Positions 1,888-13,734 of a stretch of 38,155 nucleotides of DNA are shown piece after piece; position 1 is the first letter of the stretch; every line of letters starts with the position of its first letter. The notes beneath the pieces are model-generated. The model searched no databases. It was given only the letters and a program-made list of their open reading frames with translations, and was not told where the DNA came from. The DNA is taken from the NCBI GenBank assembly GCA_023248395.1, contig JAHFEQ010000001.1, positions 1 through 38,155 on the forward strand, in the 5' to 3' direction. Source of the DNA: Nitrospirota bacterium. GTDB lineage: Bacteria; Nitrospirota; 9FT-COMBO-42-15; HDB-SIOI813. The position numbers and the translations under genes were made by a program.

Positions 1888-2799
1888 ATGAGGGTATGCG
1901 AAAGTCTTCACAGTAATCTTAATATCACCCCACCAGGAAAAGAAATAATAGCTAAAGCACTATTGGGGGACTGCAAGGAAGTATTAAAAACTATAGAGGA
2001 TAATTCAATCGATCTTATAGTTACGTCTCCACCTTACGCCGATAGCAGGTCAAATACATATGGAGGAGTCAGCCCAGGTAACTATGTAGAATGGTTCCTT
2101 CCAATAAGCGCAGAACTTCTAAGGGTTATGAAACCAAATGGCACTTTTATCTTAAATATTAAAGAAAAGGTAGTAAATGGTGAAAGGCATACATATGTGA
2201 TTGAGTTAATCCTGGAAATGAGAAAACAAGGTTGGTTATGGACAGAGGAATTTATTTGGCACAAAAAAAATTGCTATCCTGGAAAATGGCCTAACAGATT
2301 TAGGGATGCATGGGAGAGGTTACTACAATTTAATAAAAGTAAAAAATTTAACATGTATCAGGAAAATGTCATGGTATCAATGGGTGACTGGGCAAAGTCC
2401 AGATTAAGAAACTTGAGCGAAACAGATAAAACTCGCGACAATTCTAAGGTCGGGAGTGGGTTCGGTAAAAAGGTTGCAAACTGGTTGGATCGAGATAAGG
2501 TGTATCCGACTAATGTACTTCATATGGCAACAGAATGTTCAAATAAAAATCATAGTGCCGTTTTCCCGGAATTTCTTCCTGAGTGGTTTATGAAATTATT
2601 TACTAAGGAGGGAAATTGGGTTTTGGACCCATTCATGGGGTCAGGAACGACAATCAAAGTTGCCCAAAGAATGCTCCGAAATTCAATCGGGATCGAGGTA
2701 TCAAAGGAATATTACGAAATGGCCAAATCAGAGATTAAGGAAAAAGAACTTTGGTTGTTAGAGGACCAACCTGTTTATGAAACTAATCGGAACTGGTGA
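1888..2799 (+). CDS. DNA methyltransferase of a Type II R-M system (N4-cytosine/N6-adenine, TSPPY class)
   Basis: Catalytic motif DLIVTSPPYADSRS precedes the SAM-binding motif DPFMGSGTT, a circular-permuted beta-class order. Confidence 0.9.
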   Translation: MRVCESLHSNLNITPPGKEIIAKALLGDCKEVLKTIEDNSIDLIVTSPPYADSRSNTYGGVSPGNYVEWFLPISAELLRVMKPNGTFILNIKEKVVNGERHTYVIELILEMRKQGWLWTEEFIWHKKNCYPGKWPNRFRDAWERLLQFNKSKKFNMYQENVMVSMGDWAKSRLRNLSETDKTRDNSKVGSGFGKKVANWLDRDKVYPTNVLHMATECSNKNHSAVFPEFLPEWFMKLFTKEGNWVLDPFMGSGTTIKVAQRMLRNSIGIEVSKEYYEMAKSEIKEKELWLLEDQPVYETNRNW

Positions 2800-3541
2800 A
2801 GTAATACAATACGTTGAGGAAAATATTGGCAGTTTTCATACCAATAGGTTAAAGAACCTTAGCGGCTTTAAGTTAAATCAAATCTTAAAGAGAAAAAATC
2901 CTTATTTATTCAAAGCAAAAAATATTTTAACGGCTCAAGATTTAGTAAAGTTACTCTTAGATGCCCATTTATCATCTCAGGAAGAAACTATATTTGGGGA
3001 TTTTTTGGAAGGACTTGCGATCTTTATCTGCAATAAGGTTTATGGAGGAAAAAAATCAGCGGCACAGGGAATTGACCTGGAATTTAACAAAGACAGCATA
3101 AAATATATTGTCGCAATAAAATCGGGACCTAACTGGGGAAACAGCAGTCAGATTCGTAAGATGAAAGATGACTTTGTTAAAGCAATAAGAACTCTAAAAA
3201 CAAGTAATCAAAAGATCCACGTTGAGGCTGTAAACGGCTGTTGCTATGGAAAAGACAATAATCCGGAAAAGGGTAGTTATAAGAAGCTATGCGGCCAACG
3301 ATTTTGGGAATTTATTTCTGGTAATGAGAACCTATATACTGATATTATTGAACCACTTGGACACAAGGCCAAAGAAAAGAATGATGATTTTATGGAGTCC
3401 TACGCCCAGGTTATCAACAAGTTTACCCTCGAATTTATGAGAGAATTTTGCCAGGATGGGAAAATACAATGGGCAAAACTGGTACAATTTAATTCCGGAA
3501 AAGAGAATATGTCAAAAAGTAAAAAGAGTGGAAGTGTATAA
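2777..3541 (+). CDS. Type II restriction endonuclease (PmeII-like family, tentative)
   Basis: Overlaps the methyltransferase by 23 bp. Core EETIFGDFLEGLAIFICNKVYGGKKSAAQGIDLEFNKDSIKYIVAIKSGPNWGNSSQIRKMKDDF has a GIDLEF...VAIKSG PD-(D/E)xK-like arrangement. Confidence 0.7.
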   Translation: MKLIGTGEVIQYVEENIGSFHTNRLKNLSGFKLNQILKRKNPYLFKAKNILTAQDLVKLLLDAHLSSQEETIFGDFLEGLAIFICNKVYGGKKSAAQGIDLEFNKDSIKYIVAIKSGPNWGNSSQIRKMKDDFVKAIRTLKTSNQKIHVEAVNGCCYGKDNNPEKGSYKKLCGQRFWEFISGNENLYTDIIEPLGHKAKEKNDDFMESYAQVINKFTLEFMREFCQDGKIQWAKLVQFNSGKENMSKSKKSGSV

Positions 3542-9807: not shown

Positions 9808-9881
9808 ACAGTTTTTCCAGTAACTCCTGTTTCCTTTTATTAACTTTTAGCTAATCATATATTTTTTATATTTGATTTTTG

Positions 9882-10664
9882 ATGATTCCTCTCATCCCGG
9901 TAAAAAAGATCATGAGCAGAAAGATTGCTGCAATAGATGCCCATGAGCCTATTGTATCCGCAGCCAAAACGATGAAAGAGTTAAAGACCGGGAGCCTTTT
10001 AGTAACGAGAAATGAAGAACTGGTTGGCATTGTCACGGACGTGGATATGACGAGGAAGGTGTTGGCAGGCGAGGTAGATCAATATGCCACACCCGTCGAA
10101 TATGTGATGAGTTCTCCCTTCTATACCATTGATGTGGAAGATTCAGTGGTAAAGGCAAACGAGTTGATGAGTCAATATAATGTACGCCACTTAGTCGTCA
10201 CAGAGGCTGGCATACCCGCAGGCGTTATATCCGCAAGGGACATCCTGGAACCTATATACGAAGAGGAGGGCGGCATACCCTTCTGGCCCAACCATGCCCT
10301 GAAAGAGATCGCCGCGGCATTCCTTTTAATTGGGCTGATAGCCACTCTTACCCTCCTGTCACCCGCACCGATGCCCCCAAAGGCAGACCCCCTTACCACC
10401 CCGGAGCATATTAAACCGGAATGGTTCTTTCTTGCGGCCTATCAGATATTAAAGGGTGCTGAAATATTAAGATTGTTAGGTGACTGGGCCCCTAAGGTGA
10501 TAGGGATATTCTTTGAGATCGCTTTTGTCATACTCCTCTTTGCAGTCCCCTTCATTGATAAAAATCCTGAAAGGGCCTACCGAAGGCGACCTATAGCAAT
10601 TGGGCTAGGGATACTTTTTTCGCTCATCTTTGTCCTGTTTACAGTCTGGGGGTACATCTCCTGA
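9882..10664 (+). CDS. tandem CBS domains fused to a cytochrome b/b6 C-terminal (subunit IV-like) membrane domain
   Basis: Two CBS repeats (MSRKIAAIDAHEPIVSAAKTMKE...; VMSSPFYTIDVEDSVVKANELMSQYNVRHLVV) followed by IPFWPNHALKEI...PPKADPLTTPEHIKPEWFFLAAYQILK...DKNPERAYRRRP with ~3 TM helices. Confidence 0.88.
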   Translation: MIPLIPVKKIMSRKIAAIDAHEPIVSAAKTMKELKTGSLLVTRNEELVGIVTDVDMTRKVLAGEVDQYATPVEYVMSSPFYTIDVEDSVVKANELMSQYNVRHLVVTEAGIPAGVISARDILEPIYEEEGGIPFWPNHALKEIAAAFLLIGLIATLTLLSPAPMPPKADPLTTPEHIKPEWFFLAAYQILKGAEILRLLGDWAPKVIGIFFEIAFVILLFAVPFIDKNPERAYRRRPIAIGLGILFSLIFVLFTVWGYIS

Positions 10665-10667
10665 GCA

Positions 10668-11381
10668 ATGTCTAATCGTTATCCTTTAATAATCTTCCAG
10701 TATCTTTGTCTCACCATTGCACTCTTGATAGTTTTCAACGCCACTCCTGCTCAATCACAACTCACTGATGTGAATGAGCTTATGACCCTTGGTAAAGAGG
10801 TATATAACTTGAAGGGCTGCGGCAGCTGTCACAAGATAGCAGGGGCAGGGGGGGATCTCGGGCCAGACCTGACCAACGAGGGGAATATCATCTCCCACGA
10901 TACGACGTGGCATAAAAAGCATCTCCTCGATCCGCAGTCCGTAGTCCCCGGTTCAACAATGCCAAAGATCGACTTGTCTGACCGTGAAATAGTTGCCCTT
11001 ACAGTATTGATACAGGGCTTAAAGAGCGAGGAGCTCCCCAGGGATGTTGAAGGCGCAATAAAGATGGCCCATGAAAGGCTTGATGAGGCCAGAAAAGGGA
11101 TAGATGAGATCAAAAAGAGTGGTTTCAATGTAGACAATCTTGAAGTTAAATATGTCCAGGGCTGGACACACCTTGAGACAATCAATAATATGATCTATAC
11201 ACACAACCTGACAGGGGTCTATAAAGAGACCGAAGAGGCAATCCATATTGCAAAAGAGATCATGCAGGATGTATTATCCTATAATAAAGCGCTCGAACAC
11301 AGGGTCATGCAGACGATCATTTTTATCGTGTTAATGGTTATAATCGTGGTACTTTTATTTGTAAAGCTCCTGATAGTGTAA
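10668..11381 (+). CDS. membrane-anchored monoheme c-type cytochrome
   Basis: Signal peptide, one CxxCH (GCGSCHKIAGAGGDLGPDLTNEG) with distal Met region (PGSTMPKIDLS), helical domain, C-terminal TM anchor. Confidence 0.88.
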   Translation: MSNRYPLIIFQYLCLTIALLIVFNATPAQSQLTDVNELMTLGKEVYNLKGCGSCHKIAGAGGDLGPDLTNEGNIISHDTTWHKKHLLDPQSVVPGSTMPKIDLSDREIVALTVLIQGLKSEELPRDVEGAIKMAHERLDEARKGIDEIKKSGFNVDNLEVKYVQGWTHLETINNMIYTHNLTGVYKETEEAIHIAKEIMQDVLSYNKALEHRVMQTIIFIVLMVIIVVLLFVKLLIV

Positions 11382-11487: not shown

Positions 11488-12495
11488 ATGAGAAAAATAG
11501 AGATATGTGCTCCGGCAGGAAACCTGCCTTCCCTCAAGGCGGCTGTAGATAGCGGAGCGGATGCCGTGTACATGGGATTTTCAGGGGATACGAACCTTAG
11601 AAACTTCCCTGCCCTCAATTTCACAGAAGATGAGGTCTATAAGGCCATCCAATATGCCCATAGCAAAGACAAGAAGGTCTTTATTACAGTAAACTCCTAT
11701 CCTCAGGAGAGAGAGCTTCCCCTCGCATACGGTGTTGCTGATAAGGCCTATCACTTTGGTGCAGATGCTGTAATCGCCTCTGATATAGCCGTCTTATCCT
11801 ATATTAAAAAGAACCATCCGGGAAAGAGGGTCCATCTCTCGGTTCAGGCAAGCGCCTCGAATGTCCAGGCCATAGAGTTCTATCGCAGGCATTTCGGGAT
11901 AAAGAGGGTAGTGCTTCCGAGGGTCCTTACCATTGATGAGATACGGGCCTTAAGAAAGGAGACAGATGTCGAGATAGAGGTATTTGCACTGGGCCTCCTC
12001 TGTATTAATAGTGAGGGACAATGTTTTCTCTCTTCCTATATTACCCGTGAGTCTATTAACACCTATGGGGCATGCTCCCATCCAAAATTTATTGACTTTG
12101 TCCAGGATGATCATGACGATAGTCTCAAAATATTCTCAAATGGGGTATTGTTGAATAAATATTCTCCAGCAGAAGAGGTGGCATACCCAACCCCGTGTAA
12201 GGGGAAATATTATAATAGGGCAACCGGTCAGCTTAATAATGCCATACAGGACCCTGAATCACTGAATGTCCTTGAAATCCTGCCAGAGATTATCCATGCA
12301 GGGGTAGATTCCATAAAGATTGAAGGCAGGCAACGCAGCAGGACCTATGTGGAACAGGTGGTCCGTACCTTTCGGGAGGCGGTGGATAATTATTATAAAA
12401 GCGGGAGTTGTAAGATAGACCGCTCTAAAGTGCAAAATATTCAGTCACTGTTTGAGGGTCTTGCACCCAGTTATGGATGTTATAAAGGAAAATGA
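11488..12495 (+). CDS. ubiU: U32 family peptidase-like protein, UbiU-type
   Basis: MRKIEICAPAGNLPSLKAAVDSGADAVYMGF; candidate Fe-S cysteines in LLCINSEGQCFLSSYITRESINTYGACSHP...PTPCKGKYYN. Confidence 0.8.
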   Translation: MRKIEICAPAGNLPSLKAAVDSGADAVYMGFSGDTNLRNFPALNFTEDEVYKAIQYAHSKDKKVFITVNSYPQERELPLAYGVADKAYHFGADAVIASDIAVLSYIKKNHPGKRVHLSVQASASNVQAIEFYRRHFGIKRVVLPRVLTIDEIRALRKETDVEIEVFALGLLCINSEGQCFLSSYITRESINTYGACSHPKFIDFVQDDHDDSLKIFSNGVLLNKYSPAEEVAYPTPCKGKYYNRATGQLNNAIQDPESLNVLEILPEIIHAGVDSIKIEGRQRSRTYVEQVVRTFREAVDNYYKSGSCKIDRSKVQNIQSLFEGLAPSYGCYKGK

Positions 12496-13418
12496 AAATC
12501 ACCCTCGGTCCAATCCCTTTTCTATGGGATGAAGATAAGATCCTCTCTTTCTACAAAGAGATCGCAACTTCACCTGTATCTGTCGTTTATATTGGGGATG
12601 TCATCTGCAGCAAACGTTTTATCCCCGGGATCGATGCCATAGAGACGATTGGCCGGATGCTGCTTGATGCAGGGAAGGAGGTTGTGATCTCAACCTTAGG
12701 CCTGATTACAACCAGAGAAGAACTTGACTTCATAGAGGCGTTATGCAGGCTTCCCTTTACCATAGAGGCCAACAACATCGGGGTACTCAACACCTGTTCA
12801 GGTAAGGAGATCATTGGCGGACCTCATCTTGCCATATACAATGCCCCAACTGCAAAATTCCTTGCGGATCTTGGCATACAGAGGATTGTCTTTATGCCTG
12901 AGTTAAATAAGCCGGCTATAGAATCTATCTCTTTGTCTGTCCCTTCTCTTGAAAAGGAGATCATCGTATTCGGCAATCTTCCCCTCGCATTCTCATGGAG
13001 GTGCTATACAGCCCGTGCGATCGGCCTTTCAAAGGCAAATTGCGCTATTGTCTGTAAAAAATACCCTGAGGGTATGCCGCTTGAAACGATGGATGGGATG
13101 CCCCTGTTCAATATCAATGGCACACAGCTTATGAGCGCAAAAAAGGTCTGCATGGTCGGGTCACTTGATAGTTTAGAGGCACTCGGGATAGAGTATCTCC
13201 GGATAATCCCTCAGGCCAGGAACACTTCAGACGTTATTGGCATCTTCAATAAGGCCATAGAAGGTGTCCTTTCTTACCCGGAGACCCGTGAGGCCCTGAA
13301 AAGATACGCACCTGAGGGGATGAGTAATGGCTGGTTCTATGGGCAGGCAGGGTGGGAGTATGTTGACAACGAATCTATTAAGACTGGTCCCGAACAGGCT
13401 ACACAACATTATATTTAG
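12492..13418 (+). CDS. ubiV: U32 family peptidase-like protein, UbiV-type
   Basis: ATGA overlap with ubiU. Cys pattern GDVICSKRF ... GNLPLAFSWRCYTARAIGLSKANCAIVCKKYPEG as in UbiV; LFNINGTQLMSAKKVCM. Confidence 0.8.
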   Translation: MKITLGPIPFLWDEDKILSFYKEIATSPVSVVYIGDVICSKRFIPGIDAIETIGRMLLDAGKEVVISTLGLITTREELDFIEALCRLPFTIEANNIGVLNTCSGKEIIGGPHLAIYNAPTAKFLADLGIQRIVFMPELNKPAIESISLSVPSLEKEIIVFGNLPLAFSWRCYTARAIGLSKANCAIVCKKYPEGMPLETMDGMPLFNINGTQLMSAKKVCMVGSLDSLEALGIEYLRIIPQARNTSDVIGIFNKAIEGVLSYPETREALKRYAPEGMSNGWFYGQAGWEYVDNESIKTGPEQATQHYI

Positions 13419-13734
13419 GATCCTCGTTGATAAGACGATCAACAGGAATCCCGCGGTCTGTCAGAGACTGCAGGAGATCAAGGGGAAGGTATTTCTTTTA
13501 GAGGCCTCTGATATCCGTAGAAACTACTCCTTTTATGTAGATGATGGACGAATGATAGTGGATTTCGAGGGAAAAAGAAAGCCTGATGTGGTGATGCAGG
13601 GGAATTTTGATACCTTCCTAAGTCTCTTTCTCCGTAAGGCGGATGCGGATAGCCTCTTCTTTTCAAGAAGGCTTGTCATCAAGGGGGATGTAAAGACCTC
13701 CGTGTTTTTTAAGAACCTCCTTGAGCATCTATAG
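13360..13734 (+). CDS. ubiT: SCP2 sterol-binding domain protein, UbiT-like
   Basis: MLTTNLLRLVPNRLHNIIFRILVDKTIN...KGKVFLLEASDIRRNYSFYVDDGRMIVDFEGKRKPDVVMQGNFDTFLSLFLRKADADSLFFSRRLVIKGD. Overlaps the ubiV 3' end. Confidence 0.78.
   Translation: MLTTNLLRLVPNRLHNIIFRILVDKTINRNPAVCQRLQEIKGKVFLLEASDIRRNYSFYVDDGRMIVDFEGKRKPDVVMQGNFDTFLSLFLRKADADSLFFSRRLVIKGDVKTSVFFKNLLEHL

Follow-up and report, generated by a model that had tools for sequence, protein, structure and literature searches.

Control of electron flow through cytochrome bc and b6f complexes is usually attributed to proton-motive force, redox poise, or phosphorylation. In the b6f complex, cytochrome b consists of a four-helix b6 (PetB), carrying a cysteine for haem ci, and a three-helix subunit IV (PetD), with a Rieske protein as partner. 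The N-terminal arm of PetD from Chlamydomonas lies in the stroma, close to the Qi-site residue Asp35, and cutting five residues from this arm impairs electron transfer (PMC13287000). Two anammox complexes, encoded by Kustd1480-1485 and Kuste4569-4574, comprise a b6-like and a SUIV-like cytochrome b, a multihaem cytochrome c and a NAD(P)-oxidoreductase gene, and CBS domains are not mentioned in their description (PMC12954380). Tandem CBS domains form the Bateman module of CBS-pyrophosphatase, AMPK gamma, and AcuB, in which adenine nucleotides regulate the attached or partner function. The possible ligands of CBS domains further include SAM, NAD, and metals; there may also be none, with dimerisation as the only role. 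The ribose-phosphate motif of CBS domains has been defined as G-h-h-S/T-x-x-D (PMC11172384).

The window analysed here, a stretch of 38,155 nucleotides, comes from a groundwater Nitrospirota bacterium whose genome (2.01 Mb, 119 contigs) is 95% complete. It encodes a protein in which these two kinds of module are joined (Table 1). Pfam recognises two CBS domains (PF00571, 2e-22) and a Cytochrom_B_C domain (PF00032, 1.3e-16, residues 167-257), whereas no NCBIfam model matches the fusion at or above its cut-off; the PetD equivalog TIGR01156, whose cut-off is 127 bits, scores 40.4 bits. An in-frame TTG is found at 9879, upstream of the ATG at 9882. The initial annotation had reported tandem CBS domains in frame with a subunit IV-like C-terminal half and, 3 bp downstream, a monoheme cytochrome c with a C-terminal anchor. 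The former is borne out by Pfam and the latter by ORF calls, domains, and hydropathy. Since the fusion is intact in 14 genomes and both its CBS half and its cytochrome b half are under purifying selection (dN/dS of 0.03-0.12, rough values because dS is saturated in many pairs), the observation is neither a chance product nor an assembly error.

Table 1. Coordinates of the fusion, its parts and neighbours, and of the Rieske loci on other contigs (positions refer to the window unless a contig is named)
Feature	Position	Strand	Details
CBS-CBS-cytochrome b C-terminal (subunit IV-like) fusion	9882..10664	+	260 aa from ATG
CBS domain 1	9900..10061	+	PF00571 match; motif G-h-h-T-x-x-D = GIVTDVD, residues 49-55, 10026-10046
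CBS domain 2	10098..10253	+	PF00571 match; motif G-h-h-S-x-x-D = GVISARD, residues 114-120, 10221-10241
Subunit IV (PetD)-like part	10272..10661	+	PF00032; PDB matches; hydropathy/charge; three transmembrane helices E, F, G
Monoheme cytochrome c, C-terminal membrane anchor	10668..11381	+	237 aa; domain search, hydropathy
UbiU, UbiV, UbiT homologues (O2-independent quinone hydroxylation)	11488..13734	+	Downstream neighbours, conserved in f1
Rieske protein	C110 9042-9479		Both cluster motifs, CTHLGC...CPCHG
Complete Rieske/cytochrome b operon	C112 7655-13292	minus	CBS - GltD-like - Rieske - b6 - longer subunit IV - multihaem c

The sequence of the C-terminal part matches that of solved subunit IV (7r0w_J, 1q90_D), with residue 131 of the fusion corresponding to G28 of PetD. 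By co-linear extension, W135 would lie opposite W32 of PetD, and H138 opposite D35. Because the PetD match begins at residue 28, the CBS module can be regarded as a replacement of PetD residues 1-27. The resulting arm is about 125 aa long, and a linker of about seven residues separates the second CBS domain from the point where the Qn pocket region starts. Three hydrophobic helices and a positive fg loop (five K/R) follow the pattern of PetD, which places the predicted N-terminus of the fusion on the n-side of the membrane, in the cytoplasm. The Qo motif reads I-K-P-E-W-F, with PEWF at residues 179-182 (10416-10427). The initial annotation had thus read PEWF in place of PEWY correctly, but the motif is no mark of the fusion. 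Whereas the fusions of the window's family (hereafter f1) have PEWF, those of its sister family (f2) have PEWY, and PEWF is also found in ordinary cytochromes b of Binatota, KSB1, and Planctomycetota, so that PEWF was rejected as a functional novelty.

In the CBS module, the key residues of the ribose-phosphate motif are invariant in both domains (G49, T52, and D55 in the first, G114, S117, and D120 in the second; alignment A1, 13 sequences). In the 14th fusion, from genome G010, an alanine replaces the first glycine of the second motif. A structure model of the fusion is of uneven quality, with a pLDDT of about 80-88 in most blocks of the CBS part and of about 45-66 in the membrane part, which is poorly modelled. 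The closest PDB folds of the CBS part are themselves CBS pairs, among them the AMP-bound 2rif, the AMP/ADP/ATP-bound AcuB, and the SAM-bound MJ0100 (3kpb). The genome as a whole contains 18 CBS matches. Two other CBS genes, on contig C79, were set aside, their surroundings looking ordinary and electron-transport genes not adjoining them.

The cytochrome c encoded next to the fusion belongs to class I. It has one CxxCH motif (residues 51-55); its N-terminus is hydrophobic and resembles a signal sequence, and a strong transmembrane segment lies towards the C-terminus, at about residues 213-236. The UbiU, UbiV, and UbiT homologues that follow are not part of the complex proper; genes of O2-independent quinone hydroxylation here adjoin half of a putative quinol oxidase complex. 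Elsewhere in the window (1888-3541), a DNA methyltransferase-like gene is followed by an apparent restriction endonuclease gene, as judged from translation only.

The distribution of the fusion was followed by a profile search of 396 Nitrospirota genomes. Full-length fusions were found in exactly 14 of them (E at most 4.4e-119), the following hits being CBS-only or b-only (5.8e-41 or weaker). The 14 genomes fall into two families, f1 (10/10 genomes) and f2 (4/4), and the fusion was found nowhere else among the 396. Outside Nitrospirota, the distribution comes from one pattern scan, which is insensitive because the f2 members did not show up in it. Within f1, the order tig-clpP-clpX-fusion-cytochrome c-ubiU-ubiV is kept in all contigs long enough to show it. 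In f2 (4/4 genera), the fusion is part of a single operon with the order (cytochrome c -) Rieske - b6 - CBS/subunit IV - cytochrome c. The last gene of this operon encodes a multihaem cytochrome c whose final module matches the cytochrome c of the window; the latter corresponds to this last haem module together with the anchor of the f2 subunit. Over their full length, the f2 fusions are 45-50% identical to that of the window (three aligned members).

No cytochrome b N-terminal half or Rieske protein is encoded in the window, as noted in the initial annotation, and profile searches found none on the whole of contig C42 (69.6 kb). The search for an unpaired four-helix cytochrome b and a Rieske gene that it had proposed for the rest of the genome found both on contig C110, without a C-terminal half. 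The gene order there is glmM - cytochrome c - Rieske - b6-type N-half - TonB receptor. The C110 b6 is a four-helix protein of 248 aa (PF00033 and PF13631). Its haem ligands (H119/H133 and H220/H235) are invariant (alignment A2), with 13 and 14 residues between the members of each pair, which is a b6f-type spacing. Cys68, the residue expected for haem ci as predicted from sequence, is invariant as well. The genome thus holds both parts of a split cytochrome b architecture, the four-helix b6 on C110 and the three-helix subunit IV of the fusion.

The inventory of the genome bears on how these parts are paired. A six-frame search found only two PF00032 C-terminal halves, one in the fusion and one in an operon on contig C112, and the two Rieske proteins of the genome are encoded on C110 and C112. 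The initial annotation had named complete complexes together with the lack of an unpaired N-terminal half as evidence against its reading; the C112 complex is indeed complete, yet the C110 b6 is unpaired. Since the C112 complex has its own C-half, it does not use up the fusion and, the only other C-half belonging to the C112 operon, the C110 b6 needs that of the window. Pairing of the C110 b6 with the C112 C-half is unlikely, as the C112 operon already provides a b6 and a Rieske protein. Loss of a C-half beside the C110 b6 by a frameshift or an assembly gap was also rejected, since no PF00032 match is found there in six frames and the pattern is repeated in 8 genomes. The orphan b6 is present in 8/10 f1 genomes, always at a glmM - cytochrome c - Rieske - b6 locus with no adjoining C-half; the two remaining f1 genomes, both about 70% complete, are also missing the adjacent glmM. 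The f1 orphan b6 proteins share 62-66% identity with f2 b6 versus at most 52% with others. In a b6 tree, f1 and f2 form one clade (SH-aLRT 99), while the tree of the short subunit IV does not resolve their grouping; the closest relatives of both the f1 b6 and the f1 subunit IV are nevertheless those of f2. In one f1 genome (G002), a single contig carries both loci, with about 35 kb between them.

Two further cytochrome b loci were seen in the genome. On contig C3 (2-976, minus strand), a cytochrome b N-half and a partial C-half with a PEWY motif are cut by the contig end, and neither of the two Rieske proteins of the genome belongs to this cytochrome b. On contig C107 (4557-6659 and 8031-9101), one gene joins a cytochrome b N-half to 4Fe-4S ferredoxin and FlpD/MvhD-like domains. 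A NuoF-like gene and a shortened paralogue come next, and haem-copper oxidase genes adjoin. This locus has the look of a module linked to quinone or ferredoxin.

The C112 operon also has a link to CBS domains. Its first gene is a stand-alone CBS-pair gene whose product is 42% identical to the fused CBS module, and the position of the Qo motif in its subunit IV reads APWYF. Both Rieske complexes found in the genome are thus tied to a CBS pair, one by fusion and one as a separate gene. Neither locus of the window's complex encodes a counterpart of the GltD-like NAD(P)-oxidoreductase subunit of this operon. The CBS-GltD-Rieske-cytochrome b order is kept in f1 and in families f3 and f35. CBS genes do not generally accompany bc operons in the phylum: among the closest hits to stand-alone CBS genes, only those of f3, f35, and perhaps f28 lie near one. 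In the latter family, a CBS-pair gene is located about 4 kb upstream of, and on the same strand as, a Rieske gene and a fused cytochrome b (genome G156, contig C14, 1811-8252, minus strand), which may be a third association between CBS and a bc complex.

Taken together, these data suggest that the fusion is subunit IV of a two-locus b6f-type complex carrying an adenine-nucleotide sensor, a reading that we consider probable as a whole. Its parts differ in strength. That the fusion serves as subunit IV paired with the C110 half is highly probable. As f2 has a single operon and only f1 and f2 carry the fusion, its assignment as subunit IV of a Rieske/cytochrome b complex follows, and by this comparison of gene orders the operon of that complex is split into two loci in f1. 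The split bc-type complex put forward in the initial annotation is therefore well supported, by the unpaired b6 and Rieske protein on C110 and by the one operon of relatives, and assembly of the products of both f1 loci into one complex is strongly implied. Regulation of this complex by adenine nucleotides through the CBS module is only slightly favoured over other roles: we infer nucleotide control as the best account of the module, ligand and regulatory direction included. Bolder still, and held tentatively, is the proposal that turnover of the complex might be set directly by the adenylate energy charge via an n-side Bateman module, with the stand-alone CBS as its parallel for the NAD(P)-linked complex.

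In such a scheme, the f1 complex would draw its subunits from clpX-[CBS-subunit IV]-[anchored cytochrome c] in the window and from glmM-[cytochrome c]-[Rieske]-[cytochrome b6] on C110. Quinol would be oxidised at a p-side Qo site formed by b6 and the PEWF loop of the fusion. The Rieske protein would hand one electron on to the anchored (or soluble) cytochrome c, and the second would reach the n-side Qn site by way of hemes bP, bN, and ci. Nucleotide binding might then shift the n-side arm, or a CBS disc across the dimer, and this shift could tune quinone reduction or turnover to the energy charge. Because the CBS module is predicted on the n-side and is fused directly before the Qn pocket, it would more probably act on Qn, haem ci, or the dimer than gate the Qo site on the p-side directly. 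The gated quinol oxidation proposed in the initial annotation would be possible by an indirect route only, the Qo site being on the opposite side of the membrane.

Other explanations accept the same complex and assign the CBS module another role. It might be structural, joining the halves from separate loci or dimerising subunit IV with no nucleotide control, an idea that fits with the dimeric state of bc complexes and with the common dimerisation of CBS pairs into discs (PMC11172384). However, the fusion is also found in the unsplit operon of f2, so that its origin can be explained without a split to bridge. Both ribose-phosphate motifs are moreover kept across proteins that are about 50% divergent, and a structural role is thus unlikely. 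To a similarly low degree, we allow for a sensor of something other than adenylates, such as SAM, NAD(H), a dinucleotide, or a metal: CBS modules as a class bind varied ligands, and the stand-alone CBS gene on C112 adjoins a NAD(P)-oxidoreductase-like gene. Against this, the motif is of the adenosine ribose-phosphate type and the nearest folds include the AMP-bound 2rif and the AMP/ADP/ATP-bound AcuB, although the SAM-bound 3kpb is among them too.

It is far less probable that the fusion and the cytochrome c form a stand-alone sensor module outside any Rieske/cytochrome b complex. The fusion does lie far from b6 and Rieske in f1, and to our knowledge a cytochrome b C-terminal half alone binds no b heme. 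Yet in f2 the fusion shares one operon with Rieske and b6, the b6 of f1 would on this view lack a C-half, and the Qo loop and fold are under purifying selection. An assembly artefact or a chance fusion deserves practically no weight: most of the genomes concerned are draft assemblies (including this one), but the same fusion recurs in two families with differing gene neighbourhoods, and G002 has both loci on one contig.

If the reading of a nucleotide-controlled subunit IV is true, the energy charge would be linked to the quinone pool within one polypeptide, and ATP/AMP would exert direct feedback on a complex III-type enzyme, an unusual brake or throttle on respiration. In the literature searched, no nucleotide-sensing domain built into a bc or b6f complex was found, nor anything relevant on CBS domains with cytochrome b or Rieske proteins. 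Each part is of a known kind, whereas the combination of CBS with subunit IV was not found in that literature, and the energy-charge-controlled complex is put forward as a testable proposal. The locus also illustrates a bc-type operon split in two, whose orphan halves are recognisable only via a sister family that keeps them joined.

Compared with known systems, the complex resembles cytochrome b6f in its four-helix b6 and three-helix subunit IV, its Rieske partner, the haem-ci cysteine, the 14 residues between the second pair of haem ligands, and the alignment with PetD from residue 28 onward. It differs from PetB/PetD by the tandem CBS domains in place of PetD residues 1-27 and, in f1, by halves encoded at two loci and PEWF versus PEWY. 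Its partner cytochromes are anchored class I cytochromes c, and no cytochrome f was seen. The anammox complexes (PMC12954380) are instead matched by the C112 operon, apart from its CBS gene; the window's complex differs from them in that it lacks a NAD(P)-oxidoreductase and its subunit IV has three helices. With CBS-pyrophosphatase, AMPK gamma, and AcuB, the fusion shares a tandem CBS Bateman module with G-h-h-S/T-x-x-D motifs, but here this module is attached to the predicted quinone-binding subunit of a respiratory complex, with adenine nucleotides as candidate ligands. Finally, like PetD of Chlamydomonas, the fusion would have an n-side subunit IV arm near Qi. In Chlamydomonas, the arm is regulatory and affects electron transfer, and it is phosphorylated at Thr4 by STT7 (PMC13287000), whereas the arm of the fusion carries a CBS module instead.
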